The position numbers and the translations under genes were made by a program. A stretch of 64,000 bases of DNA from Morchella semilibera (lineage: Eukaryota > Ascomycota > Pezizomycetes > Pezizales > Morchellaceae). The notes beneath the pieces were generated by a model, which worked only from the letters and a program-made list of their open reading frames with translations, was not told where the DNA came from and ran no database searches. The DNA lies in the NCBI GenBank assembly GCA_009192285.1, contig CM018607.1:558001-622000 (forward strand), written 5' to 3'. Below are positions 5,363 through 24,600 of the stretch, one piece after another; position 1 is the stretch's first letter; every line of letters begins with the position of its first letter.

Positions 5363-5371
5363 GCTACACGC
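5363..5371. repeat. Left 9-bp target-site duplication of the large composite transposon
   Basis: GCTACACGC at 5363-5371 is repeated exactly at 21,630-21,638, directly outside the inverted ends TAGTCTCGT and ACGAGACTA. A perfect 9-bp match placed exactly at both ends 16 kb apart defines the element's limits. Confidence 0.85.
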
Positions 5372-5450
5372 TAGTCTCGTGCCCATCCCCTATTTTGGTG
5401 TGGTTGGAGATGTAGTATTTTTTTATGTATCCACACCAGTAGGGTCTGGA
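5372..5450 (+). repeat. Left terminal region of the composite transposon
   Basis: Starts TAGTCTCGTGCCCA and continues through CTATTTTGGTGTGG to CCACACC, a small internal hairpin. It matches, as reverse complement, the right part of the 100-bp derivative at 26,386-26,485 over about 65 bp, which confirms it as a mobile end rather than chance similarity. Confidence 0.75.
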
Positions 5451-5589
5451 GCAATAACTTTCCGGAATTACCCGGGAAAAGTCCGAAAGTTTAAATTTCC
5501 GTGATGACTAAGCACGGTTCTCCGCTTGGGTGCCCGCCGTCTCTATGACAACCGAGCACCTAGGCCGCACTAATAACATTCGCCGCCCT

Positions 5590-5694
5590 CGGTGCCATTT
5601 CTGTGTCCGCCGGTATCATTTCTGTGTCCGCCGGTGCCACTTCTGTGTCCGCCGGTGCCATTTCTGTGTCCGCCAGTGCCATTTCTGTACCCTA
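5590..5694 (+). repeat. 21-bp coding minisatellite, five units
   Basis: Units begin at 5590, 5611, 5632, 5653 and 5674 with consensus CGGTGCCATTTCTGTGTCCG plus C. The period is exactly seven codons, so expansion keeps the DUF6589 frame and yields repeated Arg-Cys-His-Phe-Cys-Val-Arg blocks. Units differ by only one to three bases, which suggests recent slippage. Confidence 0.9.
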
Positions 5695-7907
5695 TTAGTG
5701 ATGAATCGTACGTTTGATATCCCTTTGGCAGGGAGCTCTCCCGATGTTAGAATCATTGCAATACTCGGGTTCATTCGCCGAGAGTGCGAGTTTCGTTCTA
5801 TCAACCATTTTCTTCTCGAGTTGTTCGACTCGCAAGTCCCAGAAGTGAAGCGGAGGGTAGCTCCCGTGTGTGCTGCAAGGCGGGATGGCTTTGATGAAGT
5901 GATATCAACCTGGATTAAAGACCCTCGCACTGCGGAGCATGTTGAGAGAGCTACACCCGGTAGATTGATTGACCCTCCCCCCAAACCGAGAATCTATTAG
6001 ACTAACGATATAGTAGAATTCAGTTCTCGTGCTCGGAAAGAGCTCTTCCAGCAGCTCGCCGCCGAGCTTACTCTTCTCGGGGCTGATGATAGTCCCTTGA
6101 GATTACCATCAACTGCCTTCTCAATATACAACTGGGAGAGCTTTGACTACGTTCAATTAGCGGAGAAATATTCGATCAAATCTCCAACGGTATTCCAACT
6201 TGTCAAGTTTCTTTCAGGGCTTTCGGGACCCGATGATACCGTGCAGCAGCAGATTGATGATGATGTGGACGATAATGATCCTTTGATCCAAGAACAAAGA
6301 AACAAGGTCCTGGAAGCAGGAATACCTCCGGAGACGCCCGAAGCTCGGAGGCAAAGGAAAGGCCGGGACAGACTGCGGATAGCCACAACCGCAATGGGCA
6401 TCATTACCTTCTCCCGCTCTAGGAGAGCAAATATTCTTCAGACCACTTTGGGCTTTTTTGCGTATGCATCACGGACCCCTAAGAGAGTTATAAGTGTTTT
6501 AAATCGTTTCGGAATCACCTGTTCATATGAAACTATACTGGAATCCCTCCGTTCTAGCGCTACCGGTACTAGAGCAGCTATCAAAAAGCAGTGACAGGAC
6601 CGACCGTTTCTACTAACATACGATAATTGGGACCCTTATGTAAAGGTTATTGATGAACGTCTACATAACAAGAACATCCTGCATCATGCTACTCTTGGGG
6701 CTGTAATATACCTCTGGCAGAAAGACGGCACCACCTGGACTACTCGCTCGGAGTTTGATAACCCCGCAGCGGAAAGGCCCCCGGGATCAAGCCCGCTGTG
6801 TTCTATACCAAGCCAGTCCTGGGTACGCTCAGAGCTCATGATCAACTTCAACGCTCAAGATCTATTGGTACCAATCTGGGAAACTCTGAATAATCATTGG
6901 CCCATTGTCGGGGAATATCACATCTCCGAGATCCTCTGGAAGTACGCCGGAGAAGAAATGATAAAATCAGCCCACAAGTCTCGTCTTCAAATTCCTGAGA
7001 TTCACAAGTTGGCCCCGACCAAGGCGGATACATTCACTTTACTGGCAATTGATCAGAATGAGGGAACCTTGGAGGGAAACGCCGCAATATTTGATATTTT
7101 ATTAGAGGAATTATCGATAGACAAAGAAAAGGCTAATACGGATTGGTTAATACCCATATCTGGAGACCAGTTAATTGTATCCCGCCTCCAAACACTCCAA
7201 TTTCTCCGAGAACATGATATTGGTGTACACCATCTTACTTGGGTTCATCCAATAGCGGGCCTGTTTCATGTCCGGATGGCAACACTTCGAATGATATTTG
7301 ACGCGCATGAGGGTTCCGAAGATGGCCGGGACCCCATCTCCCTCCAGCGATTTGCGCTATTATTAGGTCGGACAGGGATATATGTAGGAGATGAAACAGC
7401 AGTAGACTTCCATAAAACACAATCCTTGCTAAACCAGGTTATCGATGCTCTGTTCCTTTGTTGCGCAATGACGAAACTACAGGTTACGGACATAAAAGCC
7501 TTCCGGGAAAAGTTGATTCTTGTCGATTGGCCTGAAATGGTTCAAGGGATTACCAGGGAGTAAGCCCGCCCCTCTCCGCCGTTATTGATAAGGACTGCCT
7601 CTCATCTCCAAATAGGATTCTCAACCCGCAAAAAGTCGCCTATCTTAGGACTGAGGATACAGCCAGCCGTGATATGGTGCATGAAAATGCTATTCTTTTA
7701 CTCCAGCATGGTATAGTAGCAAGAGAGTTGGTCCGGGCGATTAAAGATGGGGATACCGGCCGGGCTTCTATCATGCTCCAATACTTATCCTTGATGTTCC
7801 AAGGAAGCCGGCAATCAAAATACGCAATTGAGATGCTGGAATGGTCTGCCGGAATGCTCCGGACTTGGTCTAAAGACATGAAACTGTAACCCCCCCCCCT
7901 TCCGCCC

Positions 7908-8539
7908 TGTGACGGAGTAACCCGACGCAAAGAAGATAATAACAATGATGACGCAGATAGGCTCGAGGAGCACAGTCTACGTAACGAGGAGACTGACGAA
8001 GACAGAGGCAACACCAGCCAGGCACAAGCACAGGTACAGGCGAAGGCAAAGGTAAGGGCAAGGGCACAAGAGCGCAGAGCAGGGAGAGTGAGAACCGAAT
8101 GGATCTCAACGGGGACGATGAGGAGTACTATGAGTTCCTCTTGTCAGAGGAGCGAATCTGGGGTGCAAGAGGCTATGGCTTAGAAATAGGAGTAGATTCC
8201 TATGTACCAAGATAACAGGAAGACGAGACAGAGAGAAAAGAAAGAAAGAACTAAGAAAAACATCCATCCCCGCTATTTAACATACCTCCTCCACCAGTCC
8301 GCCAAGACTACATATCGTCATTCACAGAATCCCATAGAAACCCATCGCTACCACACCTCACAATCCTCCCCACCATCTCCGCTATTTACATTATCAATTC
8401 ATCACGCCATCGAACCTCCTAGAAATCCATGACGACACCCTCCACCTCGCATTCCCTGCTCTCGCTTAACATTTCCCCAACCACCACAACCGTGCATTGC
8501 CCACCGAACTGTCGGGACAGGTGCCAAGACGCCGGGACA
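7908..8539 (-). mobile_element. Solo LTR of the chromovirus-2 family, inside an intron
   Basis: 632 bp from TGTGACGGAG to GCCGGGACA, flanked by a perfect 5-bp duplication CGCCC (7903-7907 and 8540-8544). It matches the LTRs of the complete element at 41,208-47,560 along its length with scattered differences, so it is older. No internal region remains, as expected after LTR-LTR recombination. It lies wholly within intron 2 of the DUF6589 gene. Confidence 0.93.
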
Positions 8540-9108
8540 CGCCCCTATCCCTCTGTGGTTTTATTAATATTGAGTTAGGCTTTGGTTAAATCACTGCGTA
8601 GTAAATCTGAGCGGCAGAGAAAGTAAATTTATACCAGTAGACCAGTACAATGAATATATCGTCCGAGAGGTTTCCGATAGTCATAATCCTAGGAGTACTG
8701 GTGCGACTGATAACTTTTTACGCACTGTGATCGCCTCGAACATTATCAACTTTAGTAACGTCAAGAGAAGAGTCGCAAAAGTAGCAGGTGCTATTAATTA
8801 CGGGTCTAAACATAGCGCCATATCGGAGACTGTGGACGTTGAACGATTGGTGGCCGACTTAATTAATAGGAATGTTTTCATATTCACCCCCGGCCGGGAC
8901 CATATTGGTTCCGTAAAAATAACAGAGGCTACTGATTTGTGGAGTAAGGGATGGGGGAAGCTGCGATCTGGCCTCCCCATTGCTGAATTGATGGAAAGAA
9001 AAAATCACCGGCTTGGCGATTCTGGAGAAGATTTGGCTGATGAGCTTGGTGTGAGTGTAACTGTTGATAATGATGAAGAATAGGATCAAAAAATATATTA
9101 TTAGAACT

Positions 9109-9495
9109 CTATTTAGCTGGCCCAGTATGGTTGCCGGGGGCGCTGGACTCCGCCGGAGTTTTCTCGCGCCTTCGCCTCTTAGCTACGGGGCCCTCCGGAG
9201 CTTCCGCCCCCTTTTTCTTCTTGTTGCGGGATCCCAAGGGCCTGCCCACATTAGTCCTTTTTGTAGCAGTTGTATTTGTGATATTTTCAAGAGCTTCTCT
9301 TTGTGAAGGTTCTCCGTTATCCTGGGGCAGGGGTTCTTTTCTTCTCCGCATGTTCCAAGCGCTACGTATTTCCTGTGCCATAGCGGGTATAGCGACCACT
9401 GCCTCAGAAACTTCGGCAAAAACAGGGTCATTCCTACCACGAGGTTGTGGTAGTTGGAGACCTGGCGTGCTAAGGTATGCATCCGCCTCTAACAC
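9109..9495 (-). pseudogene. Basic, AT-hook-like C-terminal tail, probably part of the RecQ-like protein
   Basis: Encodes about 128 residues ending in a strongly basic stretch: GRPLGSRNKKKK, which resembles an AT-hook, followed by KRRRREK, a likely nuclear signal. It lies directly downstream of the helicase reading frame but one frame away. It is either the helicase C-terminus displaced by a frameshift or unseen intron, or a separate small protein. DNA-binding is inferred from composition only. The facing DUF6589 gene ends 25 bp away, so the two genes converge. Confidence 0.5.
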
Positions 9496-9591
9496 ATAAC
9501 GTTGGCTCGGGGTTGCAGGGAGTAGCGGAGGGGGGTTGGTGGCCGACTACGGACATATCTTTGGATCCCGCTCACAAGCCTCTCGGCTCCA

Positions 9592-9728
9592 CATCAGCAA
9601 GACTTTATTTGTCTCCTGATGTCTCCTGAGCCTCAGGAGACTCAAAGAATATCTAGGAGTCTCGGGAGACTCTCAGGAGACCCGGGAGACTGCTGGGAGA
9701 CTCCAGTCACAAGTTGAGTTTGCTGATG
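9592..9728 (+). mobile_element. 137-bp MITE, copy A (CA duplication)
   Basis: Ends CATCAGCAAG and TTTGCTGATG; flanking dinucleotide CA on both sides. It contains the perfect hairpin GTCTCCTGAG-C-CTCAGGAGAC and repeated GGAGAC motifs. Copies B, C and D have the same length. It interrupts the C-terminal part of the helicase gene. Confidence 0.9.
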
Positions 9729-11732
9729 CAGCCTCGAGCGGGGAAAAATCCAAGTTATATTCGGGAAGCAATACAGCCTCTAGTTCCTTGACAGATTTGA
9801 TTTCATTTGCATATGTTGCTATCCTCAGGATCTCATTAGGCCCCATTAGCCAATTATCAGGCAAAACAGGGAAGAATTGGGGCTGGCCCGGAGAGACAAA
9901 TAATTCCGCAAATCATCAGCGATTCCATCTATGCAATTCCGTACTAATATGTGCTATTTGGTTGGGCGTCGCGGGCGACACCAGGCCATGTGATCTCTTT
10001 TTGATTGCGAGGGAATTAATGGCGAATGGTGAAAACAACTCTAATGGTATTTGATCTCGCACTGTGATATTGAGATCCGGGTTCAATGTCAAAACATGGG
10101 AGAGGCAATTATCGCAGTTTTGGCATCCAATACCTTGAACGGGGAAGCCTCTGGGCTCTCCTGCAACCTCGAGGCGATTAAAGCTTTGACCGGAACCCTT
10201 GTCGTCCATCAAATATAGTGATAATTGCCGGCGACATCCTGTGGTAGATATCCACCAAAGTAGTTGGGTGTCGACAGACTTGAGCCTCTTAATCTCGGCG
10301 ACTGTTACGGATCCCCGGACCCCATTTAACGGAATAGCTATTTGTTCCGCATATATTCCTTTCAAGAACTCTTCGCAACCGGGTTTAGCTGATTGGCGGA
10401 AACGTATAAAGGGATGCCCGTCTTCGCGGCTGATAGACTTGTCCTTCTCATAGAAAAGACAGACTGTGCCCCTAAGCTTTGGGTCTCGTGCACATCGCCC
10501 GAATCACTGCCACAGAGTGTCAAATGCACCAATGGGTATTTTGTATTGTATGACTCTCACAACATTGCGGACATTAACACCCATCCCAGCATATCTGTGC
10601 ATATGAGAATACGGATCCCCCCATCGATAAATAGCTTCATATTCGCCTTATTAGCCGCATCGGAGATTATTGACGAGTAAGCCCGTACAATCGGAAGATT
10701 TCTCCAGCATCGGGGCAACTTGTTTATTAGTCTTCGGACAACTGCTTGTGCCCCAACCCTGTTATCGATAAACACCATAGTCTTCGGAATATCTTCCCAA
10801 AACCACTCTGGTACCAAACTTCCTGGTGGAGAGTCCAGCAGAAGCATATCCAGATCGGCATATGTATCAACCGGGTTTCTAATCGGTGCGCATGCTAGAA
10901 ACAAGTTTGGTCGGTCTACCGATTCCCATATCAAGATGGTATCATGAGTCAAATGTAGGCTTCTATGCGTAAAATTAAGGGCAGATATATATAGTGTTGT
11001 TGACAGCGCCATAAACGGGGTCTGCGGGAAAAATGCGCGTAAAGACCCAATGTTGGAGTACTCGGGTCTAAATGCCGGCCCGGAGCCTGAGGCGCCCCAT
11101 TTGAAGATGCAATGAGCTTCATCCACCACTACAGCGATCAAACGTTCCCGAAAAGTGGAAGTCTGGCAGTTGACTACTTTCCAGAATTCCAAATTGTCTG
11201 GTCTGGTCATTTTGGGAAAGGCATACACAATCTGAAACCGTCCATCTCGGACCCTTTTTATGAGATCCGGATCAGATTGTAAGGATTCTTGGGATAAGTA
11301 ACAAGCTCGTATGCCCTGCACTTGCAAGCCTTGAACCTAGCTGCTATATCAGAGAAGTCGAATCGGATATGTACCATCAACTTACCTGATCTTTCATCAA
11401 GCTGGTGATAGGGACGATAACCAGTATCAATTTCGACGGCTGGTTAGCAATGAGCGCCTGGAAGGCTATACTTTTTCCTCCGCCAGTGGGCGCAATTACC
11501 ACAACATCCTGGCCCGAGGTGACCAGAAAGCCCGATTGGGCTTGCCAGTCGTGAAGTTCGAAACCAAGCTTGCGGGAAACCTTCCGAGAGTAAGAATCCA
11601 GGGCATTTTTCTCCTGTCGGGTGTATATTATCTCTTCCACAGGCAAAAACTGGGCAGGAAGGTGGACAACGCGATCCAAAGGGGCCGGAGAAATAGGTGT
11701 GTCTCTCTCTGCCGCTCTCTGAGCATCACCAA

Positions 11733-11869
11733 CATCAGCAAGACTTCATTTGTCTCCTGATGTCTCCTGAGCCTCAGGAGACTCAAAAAATATCCGAGGG
11801 TCTCAGGAGACTCTCAGGAGACCCGGGAGACTGTTGGGAGACTCCAGTCACAAGTTGAGTTTGCTGATG
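11733..11869 (+). mobile_element. 137-bp MITE, copy B (AA duplication)
   Basis: Same ends and length as copy A, flanked by AA. It splits the first exon of the helicase gene; deleting the element and one AA joins the two coding halves in frame. This is strong internal evidence that the duplication is exactly 2 bp. Confidence 0.93.
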
Positions 11870-11971
11870 AATGGTATCTGGATCGACGTATCCATCACGA
11901 GCGGCGTATTCACTAAGAGCTGTCAGTCTCTGACGAAACGACAAGGCTGTCGTTGCCCTCTTGGGGGGCAT

Positions 11972-12541
11972 CTTGAACTCACAAGCTGCTCAGAGTACCA
12001 GAGCAGGAGCGCGACAATGTGCGCGAAGAGGAGCGCGATCTCGTGAGATTATGGGCGGCATCATGGGGGCTCCAGAAAAGTCTATTTTGCATGAGACCGG
12101 GGTTCTATTGCTGGACGCGGATTTTTTTTGGCAGGGGTACCGGGGTTTCCCCGCACAAAAACTGAACAAAGAAACCCACCGCCAAAGTTCCGGCGGAAGA
12201 AAAGACTGCGAATAAAGTAACCCGGATGTAATTTTAACACTACCTTAACTGTAATTAACAATAATAACCCGGAAATTGAGACTGTCAGATAAAACTATGT
12301 GAAGAATGATGAAACCCAAACCGATATAAATGCCCTAAATCCCATAGTAAACACTCTAATAATAGTAAAAAAAAAAAAAAAATATACCCCGAAGTAGACG
12401 TAAGAATGCACAGAACGACCATAATATATAATATATACTTCCCGAAAACTAAATTAAGAATGTTGGAACTCGACGAAAAACCTTGGAGGACCTGATATGG
12501 ATTAAGTTAAACCCGAAGATCCTGGAGGGGGGGTCGACCTA
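11972..12541. other. Spacer between helicase start and the upstream unknown gene
   Basis: No coding frame. It contains a run of 17 A near 12,367 and AT-rich sequence. It lies upstream of the helicase ATG (minus strand) and may hold its promoter; no defined motif is visible. Confidence 0.5.
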
Positions 12542-13956
12542 TTAGAGCGAGGCTCCCTTCATATGGCTCATGTTAAGAGCCGGGTCTAGGAGGCCCTCCG
12601 AGTTTACCGAGAACTGGTCTTGGGTGTAGATATCGGGGATGCTACTGTTAGTTGTACCCCCGCGATACTGTTGATAAGGTATAGGCTTTGCATGGTGACT
12701 GCTGTACTTCTGCAATGATGAGCCGTCAACCCCCGGGCCAGACTCGGAACCAAATCGCCGACTAGTGGGTGGGGTTACAGCATTATGACCATGCTTTGAG
12801 CTCCCTTCTCCACTCCCATAGAAAAGTGGGGATTGGAATGTGGTACTCAAGCGACGATGGGCCTCCGAGGGGGTTCAATCCCCGACTGGTCGTCGTGATT
12901 CAACTGTTTGAGCATCATACCTAGGGAGCCTGGACAACGCTGAAAACTACCTACAGCAGCTTCAGCTTTGTTATATAGGGCCTGATCCTTGGAGACAACC
13001 GCCCGCCTCTCTTTGACCTGCGTTTCCACCTCGAAAGCCTTTCCAATAATCTACTGATACTTTGCCATCATCACCTTCATTCTCTGCTCGGAAGATTCCA
13101 CCGCTCTTGGAGCATGCTCGCCCTCCTCCAGACGATTACTCGCAACGACAACATAATGTTTCAAAATGTTCATTCGGCTGCGGAGGCGTTGGATGGTATA
13201 CATCACGAGCCCAGAGATATTGAGTTGCGCAATCATATCAGACTCCTCATTACGATAGGCAGTGTCCACTGAAAGTCCGACCTCAATACCCGGGGCATCA
13301 AACAAATCTGAACATAATTTCAGCGCATCCTCCTCATCACAAGCTTGCGCGACCCATACATTAGAAAGATCCTCATCATCGAGATCTTCTTCTTGGATAT
13401 CCAAAACGTGGCTATGGTGCCCATTGGACGAAGTAATACTGATAGGGGCTTCTTTACCGGCAGGATTGAGATATGAGCCCTTCTTTCGAGGCCATTCCTC
13501 ATGAGCGAGTCCCCAACGGATCGGAAGATTGTTTACAAGGAAAGGTAAGTTGTAAGGTGGCCAGCCCGCAACATCCATACGAGTGCCGAACTCGAAGTCG
13601 ACCATAATGGCGTTAATACTGTAGTTGCGGGTGGTGATAACAACCCCGCTGGCGATACGGCTAACGGTCCTATAAGTGCTTTCCTCGAGGATATCCAGCC
13701 AATTGACTTTGTATCTGTCCGGATTATCGAGGCAGGATTCGTCGACGAAGGACAAGATAGGCGACCAAATAAAGGCAATATCTGAGGGTTTGAGCTTGAG
13801 ATACTCTTTACTCAACTCGATGTTCTCAAAGGGCCTCGGCTTTCTACCCTTCTTCTTCCGGGCTTCTTCAACTGCGGACCAGGCCATTTGAACGTTACTG
13901 TCACCAAATCTCTCGACGAGAGTGTCCGCGTAGGTCCGGAGGTTGCCTATGATGAC

Positions 13957-14589
13957 TGTGACGGAGTAACCCGACGCAAAGAAGAAGATGACAATGATGA
14001 CACAGAAGGACCCGAGGAGCACAGTCTATGTGACGAGGGGACTAATGAAGACAGAGGCGACACCGGCCAGGCACAAGCACAGGCACAGGCGAGGGCAAAG
14101 GCAAGGGCAAGGGCACAAGAGCACGGAGCGGGGAAGGTGAGGACCGAATGGACCTCAACGAGAACGATGATAGGTACTATGGGTTTCCTCTTGTGAGAGG
14201 ACTGAGACTTTGGTACGAGAGGCTATGACTTAGAAATAGGAGTAGATTCCTATGTACTGAGAGAACAGGAAGACGAGACAGAGAGAAAAGAAAGAAAGAA
14301 CTAAGGAAAACATCTATCCCCGCTATTTAACACGCCTCCTCCACTGGTCCGCTATGACTCACTCTTTCGCTCATAGAACCCCATAGAAACCTGTCGCTAC
14401 CCCACCTCGTAATCTTCCCCACCATCTTCGCTATTCTGCATTACCAATCCATCACGCCATCGAACCTCCTAGAACCTAATGACGACAACCTCCCACTCGC
14501 ATTCCCCGCTCTCGCTTAACATTACCACAACCATCATAACCATGCATTATCTACCGGACTGTCGGAACAGATGCCAAGACACCGGGACA
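13957..14589 (-). mobile_element. Solo LTR of the chromovirus-2 family (ATGAC duplication)
   Basis: 633 bp from TGTGACGGAG to ACCGGGACA with a perfect 5-bp duplication ATGAC at 13,952-13,956 and 14,590-14,594. It is related to, but diverged from, the LTRs at 41-47 kb. It sits in an exon of the unknown third gene. Confidence 0.93.
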
Positions 14590-15072
14590 ATGACCCTGCT
14601 CAAGTCCGAATTGAGTGCTTTGAGCTCCGAAACCATCTCAGGGGATAGGTGTTGCATTCTGACCGGCAGTGTATGCAGAATGAGGACCTCGAACCAATGG
14701 GCTGGAATAGGCCAAGCTTTGAAGTAGATGATTGCCAAAAGAAAGCGAAGGAGTTTTCGGTATTCTTCGGCAGACTTGAAATCGCATTATTAGTAGGGAA
14801 TCAACTTTAACGGACTTGATTGAACCTACGTCGGACAATTTCATCCTTGCAAGAATACTATTCTGGGAGCCAAGTCTTCATATTTGGCGGGGGAACGGGA
14901 TCCTTTTTCTTGGAGATTGGAGTTACTGGTACCGGCGCTTCAGGTTCCCCCACTCTCGCCTTCTTTGGGCCTGGAGTAAGTACAGCTTTCGAGGAGGGTG
15001 AAGATCTCCGACCCCGTTTACGCGTAGCTCCCGGGTCAGTGGGCGTCTCGCTTACGGCTTTGCCCTTGTTCA

Positions 15073-15657
15073 TGTTACGGAGCAACACGGAGACAACGGA
15101 CAAGAGAGCCGAGGTACACAACCGAGGCGAAGACGAGGACGGAGACGAGGAGCGACGGCGGAGGAACCTAACCGAGGAGCAGGGTTGTAGGGCAGAGGGT
15201 CCAGATGGCCTCTCTGACGAAGACGTGGAGACGCAGATACCAGTAGACGACACGGACTACGGTCATGGGCTATGGGCGAGGCGAGACTAAACGAAGCGAG
15301 ACGAGACGAGGCGAGGCGAGGCGAGGCGAGATACTATGGAAGACTCCCTAGGGTCTTGGCGATGACTATGGTTATGACGTAATATATTTTGGAACTAAAG
15401 ACACGAGACGGAACGAAACTAAACCGTAGGGTTGACAACAGGAAGAACACGTAGGAAAAGAAAGAGAAAGAAAAGAACAAAGGAAAGATCCGTAGCAACG
15501 TATATATACCCCTCCTAATCCCTGTACAATCATGACTCATAACATCGTGTAACGGAAACCCATAGAAACTCCAAGAACCCAAAAGAAAACCTTGCCACTA
15601 ACAAACCCCATTCTCGAATATCCTCCCCTCCCGCGAAGTCCATGGTACGCCGTGATA
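15073..15657 (-). repeat. 3' LTR of chromovirus 1
   Basis: 585 bp, by eye identical to 20,367-20,951. It contains a GAGGC pentamer run near 15,307-15,331. Confidence 0.95.
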
Positions 15658-15677
15658 GATTAGGCCCTCCTTCAGGC

Positions 15678-18600
15678 CTAACTCCTGGTAGGCCTAGGTT
15701 TACGTAGATATCGATCGTGAAATTCCCTAAGAAGATCGGGAGAGTGCTCTAAGTCCTGGGGGGGTTGCCATGAGGGCTCGTCGTAACCAAGATACCGAAC
15801 CAAATACTCCAACCTTCCATACCGCCTGCGAGAGTCTAAAACTTGTTCCACTTCCCACTCTTGTTCACCTTCGATTTCTATTGCTGGGGGCGGGGACTGT
15901 AGCTGGCCGGGGACGGGGTTGCATGCTGCAAGAGACAAAAGCGACACGTGAAAAACGGGGTGAATTTTCATCGAAGCCGGAAGATCAAGTTCATAAGCAT
16001 AGGGACTAACCATCCGCTTAATCGTATAAGGGCCAATACGTTTCCAATCGAGTTTCTTTGAGGGTCGTTTGGTCTCAATATTCCGAGTTGAAAGAAAAAC
16101 TTCATCTCCAATAGCATACCTGGGGGCAGGAATTCTGTTCCGATTTGCTGCATCCTCATAAATCTTCTGAGCCCGAGCCATTTCATCACGAAGGAACTCA
16201 TAAACCTGTGCCATAGTCCTAGCCATACCATTCGCCTGGTCCTCATTGGTTGTCTTTCCATGCTGTAGCGGGGCGAAGGACATACGGGGACTCCTTCCAT
16301 AATTGGCTTGGAACGGGGACATCTTGGTGGTCTCGGAGACATGGTTATTAGTCGCAAACTCCGCCATTGAAAGGTACTGGGTCCAATCGTCCTGTTGGTA
16401 CGAAACATAGGCTCGAAGATATTGCTCCATAATGGCATTAATCCTTTCGGTCTGCCCGTCTGTCTGTGGATGAAACGCGGTACTATAGCGAGGGGCGATC
16501 TCAAGACGGGAGCATAAAACTTTCCAAAATTCGGCCGTAAACTGTGTGCCCCGGTCCGAGACAATAGTTTCTGGGAGTCCATGAAGTTTCCAGACCGAAT
16601 CGAGGTACATGCTAGCAACGTCCCTGGCATTCGCTTCTTCGGTACAGGGTATAAAGTGACGCATCTTCGTTAGACGGTCAACCACCACCAGGATTGCATT
16701 AAAACCATTACTTTCCGGAAGTCCTGTAACAAAATCCATCGATACCTCAGTCCATGGGCCCTTAGGTACAGCAAGAGGTCGAAGAACACCTTGGAGGGCA
16801 TTGCGGGAAGCTTTACTGCGGGAACACACCCTACAATTCAAAACATAGCGATCGACGTACTTCCTCATATTGGGCCAGTAATAGTTCCGGCTAAGAAGTT
16901 CGAGGGTCTTAGCACGACCTGGGTGTCCGGCGGAGGGCTTATCATGATGGTCCTGTAAAAGACGAAGCTGAAGATCATTAAACTCTGGAACATAAATCGC
17001 CTGGCGATACAGAAGAAACCCATCCTCTGTTTCCATACATTCGGCAAGAGAAATCTTCTTCGATTGTTTGATGCCATTGCGGAGCATAGTAAGAACTTGA
17101 TCAGGAAAACTATCTTCTTGGTAAGCTTGGATCAACAACTCCTTCACGGTGGGCATTCCTTCAGCGGGTTCATTTGTCAAAGAACCCGTCAACAAACTTA
17201 GCTTAATTCCTGCTTCCAGATTCTCCTGCTTCAATATCACTTGCGACTAATGCATCAACCGTTCGTCCCCTTCCTTTGGTAAATCTCTTGACCTCCTGGT
17301 AAGTGCATCCGGCTTTCCCCCTTGTTTCCCGGGTCTAAACTGAATAACGAAATTAAATCGAGACAAAAATTCAGCCCATCGTGTTTGGCGGCGGTTCAAC
17401 AACTTAGTAGACATGAAGTATTCCAGATTCCTATGGTCACTTAATACCTTAACAGGGTACCGAGATCCCACCAAATGTGGACGCCATTCTTCGAAGCTCC
17501 TAATCACTGCCAACAGTTCCTTGTCATAAATCTCATAGTTGCATTCGGCTGGAGAATGTTTCTTGGAAAAGAATGCCACTGGGTGCAAGATTCCATCGTC
17601 ACCGTACTGGGACATAATGCCCGCAGAGACGTAGTCGGAGGCGTCAGTTTCCACAATAACTTCTTTTTCAAAATCAAAGTGGGCCAGGATCGGGGCCGAG
17701 GTAAATGCATCCTTGAGCTTCTGAAACGCTGCTTCTGCCCTTGGAGACCATTCAAACTTTACGTTTTTCTTGGTCAAAGCGGTAAGCGGGGGCAACAACT
17801 CGAGAGTACGCATAGATAAATCGCCGATAGAAATTTGCAAAGCCTAGAAATTCCTGGACTTCCTGGAGTTTGGTGGGAGTTTCCCAATCCTTGATTGTTG
17901 ATACCTTATTCGGATCCATCTGAATGCCTTCGGGGGTGATAATCAATCCGAGGTACTTGGTCTGTTGCACATAGAACTCGCATTTCTCAGGCTTGAGGTG
18001 AACACCATGAATTTGGAACACCTTCAGAACTTCCTGAACGTGTTGCTTATGCTCTTCCAAGGTCTCCGAGTAAATCAATACATCATCGAGATAGGCCGTA
18101 GCGAAATCATCCAAGAAGGGGCGCAGGAGATCATTAATCCAGTGTTGAAACGCGGCGGGAGCATTAGTCAATCCAAACGGCATAACGTTATACTCGAAAT
18201 GGCCATAACGGGTCCGGAACGCAGTTTTCCACTCATCGCCTTCTTGTATCCTAATCTGGTGATATCCCCAACGAAAGTCCAGCTTGGTGTAATATTTTGC
18301 TTTGGACAGGCGCGACAGAGTCTCAGGAATTAAGGGCAGCGGATGTTGATTTTTAACTGTAATCTCGTTGAGCTTTCGATAATCAACGCACAACCGAAGG
18401 GAGCCATCGGATTTCTTAACAAACAGAACTGGGGCGCCAGCAGGAGATTCAGAATAGCGAATAAAGCCCTTCGAGAGATTCTCCGTAATATAATCCCTCA
18501 GAGCCTGGAGTTCCAACCGAGACATGCCATAGAGGGGACCGAACGGGGGTATCTTGCCATCCTGTAGGACTATTTTCAAATCATGAGGACGGTGTGGAGG

Positions 18601-19332
18601 CAAAGCGGCGGCATCAGATTCTTTAAACAAGGATATAAATTCCCGAAGTTCCATAGGTACATGAGCCAGGGGGTTGAGGACTTGTTTTCCAGCAAGAGCC
18701 TCATCAATAGCCCGGATCGACGCACAGAAGAGTTTATTCTGCTGGCGCCGAGCAAGTCCTAAAAAGGGAACCGCTCCGATGGCCGCAATCTGAATGGCCG
18801 GGGCATCGGGGAACGAAACCGAGATTCCTTTTGCCGTAACTGGAGCATGGGAGCAAGAGCAGTTTTGAACGCAGAAGTCAGAATCAAAGATAATCTTATT
18901 CGTCTTTGGTCTGATAGCCAGATCGTGGTGCCTCATCCAAGGGATACCCATTACTAGTGGGTAGTGTCCTAACTTCGTAACGAAAAACAGAGCCAGTTCC
19001 TGGTGTCCATTAATATCCAGGGAGAGCTTAACCATATGCGTAATTTTTCCTGATTCCACCAGCCTGCCGTCGATTACCTCGAGCAAGCGTGATGTCTTCA
19101 GGGGAACCGGAACAAGACCATGTTGCAAGACAAACCCTTGGTCAACAAAAGCATAGCCCGAAGCGCCTGTGTCTATCAGGGCGTGGGTAGCAATGGGGGC
19201 GACGGCGTCTTGAGCAACCGAGCAGGAAACAACAAGAGACTCCTCAGACATCCTATCTTCGGAGACAGCGGCGGCGGAGAGAACAAAAATAGGTGGCGGG
19301 ACTAGCCCCTTTGGTGTGCCAATTTTTACCAA
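15678..19332 (-). pseudogene. Pol polyprotein of chromovirus 1 (one frameshift, one stop)
   Basis: Domains in order: aspartic protease (DTGASGY), reverse transcriptase (VDYRKLNEITV, MPFGLTNAPAAF, YLDD), RNase H (VETDASDY), integrase (CRVCSRSKASRN zinc end, [30 protein letters not shown]) and a C-terminal chromodomain (WEVEQVLDSRR, YLVRYLGYDEPSW). The frame overlaps gag in the -1 frame, as is common in this group. Lesions: one extra C in a C5 run near 17,788 after YAYSRVVAP, and TAG at 17,247-17,249 where the sister element reads Gln. Without these two changes the frame would be complete. The chromodomain probably targets integration to marked chromatin (family knowledge). Confidence 0.9.
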
Positions 19333-20304
19333 AGGGGCTGACCTTTTAACGCCGGCTTCTGAATTACTGGTTCAACTGGTGCTTTACGCCAGTTGTCGGG
19401 GGTGCGGGAATCCTGGGAGCGAGGGGCGAGATAGCGGGGCTTTGGGGTTGGGGCAGAGGTGCGGGCTGGGTTTCGAACGGCAGGAGCAAGGCGGCGGCGA
19501 AGGTTGGCGATAGTACCATCGGCGTCAGCAAGGGCTTCTTGGTGTAGAGCCAGGCGGTAACGGAACCCCTCCTTCTCAGCAGTGAGAAGAGCCACTTTTT
19601 CTTGAAGATTCTCGATAGCCTCCACTGATTTCTCCTGGGCCTCGCACAAGCAGGACCAGAGGTCAGCAGCTTTTTCTTCAGCCGCGTCGAGTTCGGACTC
19701 GAGGTTCTTGATCACCTCGTCGTGGGCCGTGCATACGGCCAAGTCTCCAGGAACCCCAGCGGGGACATCGGGGGGGGCGACCAAAGCGGCAAGGGCCTCC
19801 GCAATCAGGGTATGGGCCTGGGTAAGCTCATATCCGAAGTCCTCCTCAATAGGACCAAAATTTTCCAAGAACTCCGCGAGTCTCTCGGTTAGGGTAGGGG
19901 AGGCGGGGGCGACAGGGGTTTCCAGGGGGCGGCCAATAGTATGTTGGGCGAGGGCGGAGTCCCTAAGGCCACGAATAATGGCTTCGGAGTCGTGGGCGGG
20001 GCAGGAGTCATCGATGGTGGGGGGCTCCAATATGGAGCTTGCCCGGAGCAGGTTGGGTAAAGGTGGCCTTAGCCCAGTGGGCGTCGGCGCGCTTAAAGAC
20101 CGTGGGAAATGGCGTATTGACGGAGGCGGTGGACATGGGGTCAGAGCCGAGGCGATTGCCGAGGTCGAACCAGTAGGAGCGGGGGACAAGAGCGAGGTGG
20201 CAGTACCCCTTCCTTTCTGGGAAGAAGCACTCGAGGGGACCAGGGGAGAAGAAGACAGGGTTGGGGCAGTCCCCCATAGGGACATCCCAACTGAGGTCGG
20301 TCAT
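19326..20304 (-). CDS. Gag-like protein of chromovirus 1 (frame uncertain at the N-terminus)
   Basis: The C-terminal two thirds (below about 20,040) is a clear frame with acidic coiled-coil character (LESELDAAEEKAADL and a following helix). It ends at TAA 19,326, overlapping pol in the -1 frame. The N-terminus could start at ATG 20,304 in the neighbouring frame (MTDLSWDVPMGD, aromatic-rich and protein-like), which would need a one-base shift near 20,030, or at 20,285 in the same frame. No CCHC zinc knuckle is visible, unlike gag of chromovirus 2. It would form the particle that packages element RNA. Confidence 0.6.
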
Positions 20305-20366
20305 TATGACCGGGGCAATGCAAGACGGGGGCGTTGTGTAGGTCGGCGGAGGGGACGTGTTCTTAG

Positions 20367-20951
20367 TGTTACGGAGCAACACGGAGACAACGGACAAGAG
20401 AGCCGAGGTACACAACCGAGGCGAAGACGAGGACGGAGACGAGGAGCGACGGCGGAGGAACCTAACCGAGGAGCAGGGTTGTAGGGCAGAGGGTCCAGAT
20501 GGCCTCTCTGACGAAGACGTGGAGACGCAGATACCAGTAGACGACACGGACTACGGTCATGGGCTATGGGCGAGGCGAGACTAAACGAAGCGAGACGAGA
20601 CGAGGCGAGGCGAGGCGAGGCGAGATACTATGGAAGACTCCCTAGGGTCTTGGCGATGACTATGGTTATGACGTAATATATTTTGGAACTAAAGACACGA
20701 GACGGAACGAAACTAAACCGTAGGGTTGACAACAGGAAGAACACGTAGGAAAAGAAAGAGAAAGAAAAGAACAAAGGAAAGATCCGTAGCAACGTATATA
20801 TACCCCTCCTAATCCCTGTACAATCATGACTCATAACATCGTGTAACGGAAACCCATAGAAACTCCAAGAACCCAAAAGAAAACCTTGCCACTAACAAAC
20901 CCCATTCTCGAATATCCTCCCCTCCCGCGAAGTCCATGGTACGCCGTGATA
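20367..20951 (-). repeat. 5' LTR of chromovirus 1
   Basis: 585 bp, identical to the 3' LTR. The internal side begins CTAAGA in sense orientation rather than the usual TGG of a tRNA primer site; chromovirus 2 shows the same. Confidence 0.95.
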
Positions 20952-20954
20952 GTT

Positions 20955-21091
20955 CATCAGCAAGACTTCATTTATCTCCTGATGTTTCCTGAGCCTCAGG
21001 AGACTCAAAAAATATCCAAGAGTCTCAGGAGACTCTCAAGAGACCCGGGAGATTGTTGGGAGACTCCGATCACAAGTTGAGTTTGTTGATG
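20955..21091 (+). mobile_element. 137-bp MITE, copy C (TT duplication)
   Basis: Same ends as copies A and B, with the right end mutated to TTGTTGATG. The duplication TT is at 20,953-20,954 and 21,092-21,093. The chromovirus target duplication GTTCA overlaps its first two bases, so the MITE was there first. Confidence 0.9.
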
Positions 21092-21102
21092 TTACCGGCC
21101 AT

Positions 21103-21551
21103 CAGTGCTGAAGTTTTGAGTGTTCAGAAAGTTTGGGAGAAGACCGGTGTATAGGGGAAGTGGGGGTGATGAATGGGGATACGCGATGTTTGGTGTTTGA
21201 ACGCGGGGTATTTGGCTTGGCTTAGCTCACGTTGATTCACAGGGTTTCTTTCATCACCAAGTGGGTAATTTTCATCACCGATCAGAGCTACTATGCACTT
21301 TTTTCCTCTGTCCCTATGTACACAAGATAGAGCTCGTTAAATACTGTCGGAGCCACTTTCAACTCCGACGGTCTTATATCACTTCCCTAAACGATCCTAT
21401 TCTATCAGGCGGGCTTCTTTCACCGCCCGCGCGGCCTTCTTTCACTGCCCGGATGACTAATCAAAATCCCGGAGACGCTAACTTTCCCGAAACGGCGCTA
21501 ACAGCCCCGAAGTGGCGCTAGTATTCCCGAAAAAAGGACTGGTACAAGCTT
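21103..21551. other. 5' region of the third gene and subterminal repeats of the composite transposon
   Basis: Non-coding. A doublet of CTTCTTTCAC plus GCCCG-type sequence lies at 21,409-21,452. Three 20-bp-spaced repeats of CCCGAARYGGCGCTARY begin near 21,486, 21,506 and 21,526, the last truncated, with a looser copy at 21,468. Such clusters next to an end often serve as transposase sites; that role is inferred. Confidence 0.6.
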
Positions 21552-21629
21552 TTTGAGTAAGCACACCAGACCCTTCCGGTATTGCACACCACAATAAAAA
21601 AATACCGATTGGGTCTGGGAACGAGACTA
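21552..21629 (-). repeat. Right terminal region of the composite transposon
   Basis: Read inward on the minus strand it begins TAGTCTCGTTCCCAGACCCA and continues AATCGGTATTTTTTTATTG. It matches the left end of the derivative at 26,386 over about 50 bp with small indels. The 9-bp duplication GCTACACGC follows at 21,630-21,638. Confidence 0.8.
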
Positions 21630-21638
21630 GCTACACGC

Positions 21639-24600
21639 GACAGGTAACAAGTACCCGAAAATGCAGCTGCACTGAATTGGTGTATTTCCCTCTTTTAATC
21701 CAATAAGAATTACATCTCAGGACTTGCATATTCGGGTACCTCTTACCTGCCGCGATTATAACGCCAGTGTACTATCAAACAAAACATATTCAGTTTTCAC
21801 CAGTAGAAATACTTCATCCCCCCCCCCCACCTTTGTCATCTTCGGCACTTTCTTCGGTACTTGTTTCCCGATCACTAGAAGTACAGCGAGTGGTAAAATT
21901 ATCGTACTCGTCTACCAGGTAGAATTATGGGAAGAGTCTATTGGCCAAGTTAGCCATATGCATTCAAAGCCTAATAATTCGATCTCTCGCTGTATTTAAA
22001 ATCGATCCTCAATTTAACATCCCCTGGTAGGAGTGGTATGCACATTGCACCCATTGATCCAACCACGCGACACTAGCTTAGGAAGCAAGTTGATCTAAGT
22101 TTGTAAAGTTATAGTATGTATATGAAATTATGTGGTACATTAAGTTCGTCCAGGCCTAGGATCGATTAGTAAGAAACGTTTGGAGCTTATTGTCCCTAAA
22201 GTAGTGGTTTTTTTCTTAAAGTACATACATGTAGGTAACATCATCAGGATGTGGGCTATATTCTATTCTATTCGGTCCACAGGCAACTCAATTACATATA
22301 TATATGTAAGTTTATTAAGATAAATCTCTCACAGGCCTAGCTGCGTCTCCCTGCAAAAATCTCCGGAGTATACAGTACCAAAAATGAGGGGTGGGACCAC
22401 TATGTTATTCCCGTCAATAAGCTATAGCTAGTAATGCGATAAGAGTACAATGCTCTTCCTTCGATGCCGGTTTAATTCGGTATTTGTCACTAAATTTCGT
22501 AGCCCTATGACAGTGATTTCACACCGTTTTTTCATACTGCAAGAACTGCATGGATGGGCTATTGGAATTCGTAGAAGTATCTCCTCTATCAACAAGAAAT
22601 ACCAAAAATACATGTAGATACCTATAATATATCCCCATGCCTTGTTGCGCGGTGTGCATAGATATTTCCTGAAAATGAAAAGAATGTATCCAGATTTTGA
22701 CATAAATATGTGAATATTGCATGATGTCCGATATAATAAAGATTCTATGACCAACAAGTAATACAGACAAGGTCCGCCACAAACCGTTCGTTCAGAGACC
22801 CCATCCCCCCCCCCCTCTTTCTTTGCCGCCTCATTTAAGTGTCCGCCTGCGCAGACCGCCCCTACGAACTCAGAACCAGCCTTTGAGGATTGTCTAGGTA
22901 AGCACCTTCGACGTTTAGGCGCATGAAGAATATTAGGAACATCTAAGGGCCTTAACCCCGAAAGTTGAAAATTCCGGAAGAGTAGGCGATCACACCATTG
23001 GTACTAGTACTGCAGCAAATCGTGGCTTCGCACGACACCCGGTTGACCCGTTCGAGCACTTGGCATGGATACTGGTAGAACCCATCATAGCCAGTATTCG
23101 CCGTACAGCAAAAGTAATTTAAAAAAAAAGTGTGCAGTGAATAAAGAACTATATGTATAATCATAGTAAAGTCAGTACAGATAATCCCAGACCAAGCTCA
23201 AACACTTAATAACACAATATCAGCCCTAAGTGGGTAAATTTCATACTTACACAGATATCTACGAGTTCGAATTCATGAACAAAGTAGCTGTTCGTTCGAC
23301 CCCTTTTTCTGGGGAGAAGGTAGGGGCGCGGAAGGTGAGCTACTCCTGATAACAGAGCGGTTGTGAATATCTGATGTGGTACCACCCGCCGGGGTGGATT
23401 GCGAGTCTGTGGCGCCGCCGGCCTCTGGATCTGTACGTGCGACCGGACCCGGAGTTGACTATTCATAGAACCAGATAATTAGTACCGCAAGAAAATTGCA
23501 CCCCGAATGCTGTGGTCGTGGTCAAATGCTCCAGGTAATTAACAAGGATGCTAAAGAGGAATGTAAATTTGTACATACACTAGTGTTGTAGCGCTTCCGA
23601 AACTGGATAACCCCTATAATTCCCACAATAACTCCGAAAATACTGATAATAATTCCGACAAGGGCGAAGGTGTCACTCCTATTCAATGTTGATACACCCA
23701 TCTGGAAATTCTGACAGAATTTAGCTGTGAAGTTCGTGTTGGACGATACAAATGGTTGATAGTGTGTTTGCTTGTTTCTCTAGATCTAGAAACTATGGTG
23801 GCGAAGGCTGTTGATAGCTAGCTCCGGGTCGACGTTAATCAGTTGATCGCGTGCGAAAAATTGATGCAGGGAGGGAACGATATATTAATTATTTGCGTTC
23901 AATTGCGCATTAGATGTAGATCATTTTATGGGGTACCCCTCTTCCCAAAAACCTCCGCCAGCGGAGGACTCGACAGGACTCCACTAACCAAGCTGACGCG
24001 GCTGAGCTCTGCACAATAACAGCCTTGTGAGAGTCGTTTGCTTACAATCTAAGGGTATTATACCAGATATTCCATCTATCCATGCACACGATGTGCCAAT
24101 TAATGTCCTTTCTTCGACTGACGATAGTATGTATGTGGTGTATTGTGAGGTCTTCAGTCACTCACCCACTCACTACCAACGTACACAAGAGCCACTCTAG
24201 ATATAACTTTGAAAGTAGAATAAGTCGAAGCTTTTGATCTAATGTACCCAATCTCTACGCACAAATCCCTATCAATATATAGTACGTAACTTAATTGAAT
24301 GATCCTATACTCTGACCCCCTAAAACATATATCTTTAACTACTGGATGAGTGACTGGAACGTAAAGCAGTCTTGAGTTACCTATATCTAGCCTACTATCC
24401 CTCACCTGGCGCCGTCAACTACAAGCCCATTAGCTTTAGTGACGGCCGGCTGACTTTGGTTATAATCGTGATGACCTGTCCCCTCTGTCGATCGTTATCT
24501 TCCATCGCTCCTATAAACCAAAGAGAGAGGGAACATGCGCAGTGTGTCGAATTATAGAACCTTTACGGATTTGGGCCCGATCGGTCGCATAAAAAAACTA

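Follow-up and report, generated by a model that had tools for sequence, protein, structure and literature searches.

A DUF6589-encoding transposon with a RecQ-like helicase and a third gene in Morchella semilibera, probably of the AcademH type

The 64,000-nucleotide stretch analyzed here (hereafter the window; positions 558,001 to 622,000 of contig CM018607.1 in the Morchella semilibera assembly GCA_009192285.1) carries a broken transposon whose three genes encode a DUF6589 protein, a RecQ-like helicase and a protein with no assigned family. Coordinates are those of the window unless a contig is named. Read directly from the window, the insertion occupies 5372..21629: TAGTCTCGT begins at 5372 and ACGAGACTA finishes at 21629. 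The left terminal inverted repeat (TAGTCTCGTGCCCATCCCCTAT, 5372..5393, plus strand) matches the right one (TAGTCTCGTTCCCAGACCCAAT when read inward, 21608..21629, minus strand) at 18 of 22 positions, including a perfect match over the first 9 bp. Outside these ends, the target-site duplication GCTACACGC stands at 5363..5371 and again, as a perfect 9-bp match, at 21630..21638. An earlier, sequence-only reading of the locus had reported inverted ends, a perfect 9-bp duplication and three genes between them, and all are as it described.

The insertion as first delimited spans 16.3 kb; that it is a transposon is supported, but the native element is shorter. A search with the left 2.5 kb recovered a second copy beginning at C11:935519 (98% identical), which whole-stretch alignment extends to C11:935519-944323 (8.8 kb; 92-99% identical to the window copy by block). 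This copy has the same ends as the window copy and its own, different perfect 9-bp duplication, ggttgcact; copies with other limits had been proposed as grounds for rejecting the element, and the C11 limits are the same. It carries none of the five nested insertions present in the window copy (approximately 7908-8539, 9592-9729, 11733-11870, 13957-14590 and 15071-21089), later arrivals that account for about 7.5 kb of its 16.3 kb. Because the C11 copy has the same ends but no nested insertions, the native element is 8.8 kb, about half the length first stated. In the window copy, which is broken, none of the three genes runs uninterrupted.

The three genes

The first gene, encoding the probable transposase, lies on the plus strand at 5701..9083, with exons at 5701-5959, 6014-7559, 7616-7885 and 8579-9083 and one in-frame stop. 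In the C11 copy, the corresponding frame is open (858 aa) and contains three GT..AG introns of 59, 56 and 60 nt, the exon joins having been set manually and with the help of an alignment to a second family of copies described below. The window protein matches PF20231 (DUF6589) at 5e-38 and 1.1e-11, in agreement with the identity first proposed for it. Thirteen DUF6589 matches, all over the curated cut-off, fall at eight loci: the window, C11 at 0.94 Mb, C20, C22, C3, C1, C2, and C11 at 1.92 Mb. The domain was found in none of 14 control genomes. A large protein search with the transposase, in which 8000 candidates were scored, returned one relative (P0001), and viral contigs held no relative of the second-family transposase. 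Alignment of the C11 and C22 proteins points to three candidate acidic residues for a possible DDD/E catalytic core: the D in a Y/F-D-N motif, that in G-D, and the E in E-N.

The DUF6589 gene at C11:1923992-1926244 (minus strand; L018:937-3189) stands alone. It has a 751-aa frame, and no helicase relative was found beside it. GN replaces the conserved GD, and the region of the first candidate residue is unaligned; judged by these residues, it is possibly a host-adopted, non-cutting relative of the transposase.

The second gene, a broken RecQ-like helicase gene, lies on the minus strand at 9109..11971, with outer limits that are approximate and inferred from the C11 copy. Its window frames are 11377-11745 (the P-loop part), 10557-11336 and 9916-10503, all on the minus strand, and they match DEAD over the cut-off (1.6e-9). 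In the C11 copy, a 135-aa P-loop frame comes ahead of a 671-aa frame; the longer frame matches Helicase_C over its cut-off (7.4e-12), and DEAD and RecQ_Zn_bind under theirs. The second-family helicase matches TIGR00614 recQ_fam at 3.2e-25, under that model's cut-off, and its top solved-structure match is RECQ5 (2.5e-12). Together, the DEAD, Helicase_C, recQ_fam and RECQ5 matches bear out the RecQ-like identity given to this gene in the sequence-only reading. That reading would have been undermined by DUF6589 and helicase genes lying routinely apart, and they do not: a helicase relative occurs at six of the eight DUF6589 loci, the exceptions being the C20 copy, which lacks the half of the element where the helicase gene lies, and the lone gene at C11:1.92 Mb. 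One extra helicase match, at C1:254425, is distant from every DUF6589 match.

The third gene, also on the minus strand, occupies approximately 12542..15075; its longest frame here is 13051-14025, and the insertion at about 15071 severs its start. The main frame is 553 aa in the C11 copy. No Pfam or NCBIfam model matched the protein above a cut-off, and an alignment search found no solved-structure relative under an E value of 1 (rows at E >= 0.67). Large protein searches with it yielded nothing at E <= 0.001 among the 8000 and 7998 candidates scored, and viral contigs held no relative of its alignment.

A second family, the third protein and short derivatives

A second family consists of the copies on C20, C22, C3, C1 and C2. 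Their main blocks are 92-99.97% identical, and they have ends (TAGCCTCG) related to those of the window family, together with 9-bp duplications. The C22 copy (1841271-1850800) has ends TAGCCTCGTGCCCAGGCTG and GAGCCTGGGACCGAGGCTA and the exact 9-bp duplication acgcgccct, and in the C1 copy the left flank CAAGTAACT and the right flank CATGTAACT differ by one mismatch. For three copies, the flanks match across contigs: the left flank of C2:2737399-2752567 equals the right flank of the copy at C20:4678524 (GCATCTATC), and the left flank of the copy at C3:2129522 equals the right flank of the C2 copy (GAATGTAAC). These matches suggest exchange between copies or assembly joins. Between the two families, the transposases are about 27% identical and the helicases 29-45% by piece. 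Gene order and orientation are the same, with the DUF6589 gene running inward from one end and the third gene, followed by the helicase gene, running inward from the other.

The third protein is less readily traced between the families. Against a profile built from the C11 protein and a lone relative at C22:0.61 Mb, the second-family protein scores 6.1 bits (E 0.033), whereas the best of 200 shuffles reaches 1.4 bits. In pairwise BLASTP, the E values are 1e-4 and 0.02. An hhalign comparison spanning 63 columns returns E 0.005, but its probability is only 7%; an unrelated control protein returns E 0.17. The similarity is weak and falls short of proof, but we consider the third proteins of both families likely to be homologous because the position of the gene matches in both.

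The lone relatives of the third gene lie at C22:611856-613094 (L050) and C21:610809-612047, with 34% identity over about 400 aa and an open frame of 531 aa. The gene occurs once on each contig at matching places, and the two contigs look like haplotypes. No DUF6589 or helicase match was found near either locus, and the 3.9 kb read at the C22 locus held no matching ends. This relative is possibly a host gene, and from it follows a different account of the element's own copy: that the third gene was captured from the host and is not a working part of the transposon. The lone relatives, standing apart from the other two genes and from element ends, favor such a capture. The second family, however, has a gene at the same place and in the same orientation, even if the similarity is weak, and the host copy may be the derived one. 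We regard capture as a possible but doubtful origin for the third gene.

The ends also recur in short sequences, and more often than chance would give. Each strand of the genome carries TAGTCTCGT 370 times, whereas its reversed control is found 161 and 162 times. The pattern TAGTCTCGT-N80..110-ACGAGACTA is found at 42 places and its reversed control at none; the 42 include two that overlap, three likely haplotype pairs and one of simple repeats (C2:3215784). A longer pattern, TAGTCTCGT-N270..300-ACGAGACTA, is found at five places (control, 0). For the second family, very short derivatives with 10-40 bp between the ends, the one size range searched, numbered zero, as did their control. Among the first loci inspected, nine of ten end pairs have an exact 9-bp duplication, the exception being a 43-bp pair; this set is a favorable one, as most of its loci were chosen by similarity to an element end. 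An exact duplication borders 15 of 29 further short copies, and hence 24 of 39 short end pairs overall. Duplications were examined at 33 of the 42 places, comprising the 29 further copies and four from the set of ten. Past these nine bases, too, most of the short sequences listed agree with both ends of the full element, which would be expected if they are derivatives moved in trans.

Assignment to AcademH, mechanism and alternatives

We consider it likely that the element is a DNA transposon of the AcademH type and that the DUF6589 protein is its transposase, the Academ name being one that we infer. AcademH was reportedly first described by Kojima in 2020, in a publication outside the literature that we searched; within that literature, DUF6589 was not found, and PF20231 appeared only in an unrelated context. 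According to PMC10045372, AcademH elements carry a helicase and make duplications of 9 or 10 bp, AcademX elements carry a nuclease and make duplications of 3-4 bp, and the difference in length seems tied to that between helicase and nuclease. AcademH is recorded in Basidiomycota, Ascomycota and Mucoromycota as low-copy elements in PMC10799480. Both AcademH features that we compared are present here, namely an exact 9-bp duplication (in the window, C11 and C22 copies) and a helicase (in both families), and coding copies are likewise few. AcademX, by contrast, differs in both its duplications and its nuclease, although it would belong to the same superfamily if the element is an Academ. The helicase-encoding Academ lineage fits best, because the duplications reported for AcademH have a length of 9 or 10 bp, and the assignment rests on the helicase and the duplication length. 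The likeness is drawn from descriptions of AcademH rather than from transposase sequence, and the third gene may set the present element apart.

The sequence-only reading had named helicase-encoding Academ as the nearest described group; this holds as a best fit by duplication length and helicase, with kinship of sequence putative. It had also suggested that the third gene and the end structure might be new. In the length of its duplication, which is the one reported for AcademH, the end structure is not new. The element is probably another AcademH, and its value lies in casting the DUF6589 protein as a transposase. Pfam lists PF20231 without a function; here, the domain makes up the central part of the protein that probably acts as transposase for a mobile element, and its likely job is that of transposase in helicase-carrying transposons.

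As a transposase, the DUF6589 protein would recognize and bind the element's ends (TAGTCTCG; TAGYCTCG), cut there, and join the ends to the target with a 9-bp stagger to leave the 9-bp duplication. We infer movement by cut-and-paste rather than by copy-out, and the assignment of cutting to this protein, like the roles that follow, is proposed from sequence. The RecQ-like helicase may serve as an accessory that unwinds the ends or remodels a transposition intermediate. The third protein, encoded on the helicase side and strand, could be another accessory; that it has a structural or DNA-binding role is a guess from sequence. Short copies with the same ends would be moved in trans by such elements. 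A more speculative extension is that these elements form a three-component lineage, in which a DUF6589 transposase has a fixed RecQ-like helicase partner and an obligate third protein, and from which the lone DUF6589 and third-gene copies became host genes. A third element-encoded protein is one that models of transposition may need to take into account. The genome, moreover, holds both families as full-length copies, alongside dozens of short derivatives, and these could be used to test what the ends require.

Several observations weigh against an AcademH transposon driven by the DUF6589 protein. When the window and C11 copies are compared, the ratio of amino-acid-changing to silent differences is 0.85 for the transposase (857 codons), 0.97 for part of the helicase (534 codons) and 0.64 for part of the third gene (469 codons, one end of which aligned poorly). 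These values give no clear sign of selection on the genes; they fit decay after insertion and tell little about function. Set beside the window copy, the C11 helicase shifts frame in its N-terminal part, and we make no claim that this gene is intact. Searches with joined flanks found no unoccupied allele for either the window or the C11 copy. An alignment search by sequence found no solved-structure relative of DUF6589 (best rows E >= 0.67), and the first candidate acidic residue, in the Y/F-D-N motif, is N in the homolog P0001, which makes the proposed triad a tentative one. Finally, 14 of the 29 further short copies do not have an exact duplication (five with one mismatch, three with two, and six with four or more).

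Among other origins for the element as a whole, a separate and so far undescribed three-gene group, whose DUF6589 transposase gained a RecQ helicase independently and which resembles AcademH in duplication length only, strikes us as unlikely. It draws on the two characters by which AcademH membership is argued, on a third gene with no known relatives in the searches made, and on the silence of the searched literature about DUF6589, which means little. Yet helicase and duplication length are the very characters that part AcademH from AcademX in PMC10045372. A KolobokH element, a fungal Kolobok with a RecQ helicase, is highly improbable: the RecQ helicase and the fungal host agree, KolobokH being reported from fungi only (PMC9587614), but Kolobok duplications are given there as TTAA-specific and 4 bp long, and its helicase as downstream of the transposase, whereas the duplications here are 9 bp and the helicase is on the opposite strand. 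We rejected it on the 9-bp, non-TTAA duplications. A Mutator-like element (MuDR/MULE) with extra genes is equally remote. Such elements often make 9-bp duplications, in agreement with those observed, but this reading too was rejected, as no MULE transposase domain was present among the proteins scanned against Pfam, where the transposase candidate matched DUF6589 alone.

Nested insertions and the flanking repeat

Two of the later insertions in the window copy resemble solo long terminal repeats (LTRs). The one at 7908..8539, which lies within intron 3 of the DUF6589 gene, has TG..CA ends and the 5-bp duplication CGCCC; the one at 13957..14590 is 85% identical to it and has the 5-bp duplication ATGAC. 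Two repeats of about 138 bp, at 9592..9729 and 11733..11870, are 94% identical to each other and are not in the C11 copy. The largest insertion, an LTR retrotransposon at 15073..20952, interrupts the third gene near its start and is followed by a further short repeat reaching about 21089. By our own reading of its reverse transcriptase and integrase frames, it appears to be of the Ty3 type, and because its two 586-bp LTRs are 100% identical to each other, it inserted recently.

The right flank of the window copy (21630-21740) is part of a dispersed repeat with at least 39 matches elsewhere. Of the 39 matches listed, 30 begin no more than two bases from the first base of the target duplication, and the element was therefore inserted at the edge of this repeat.

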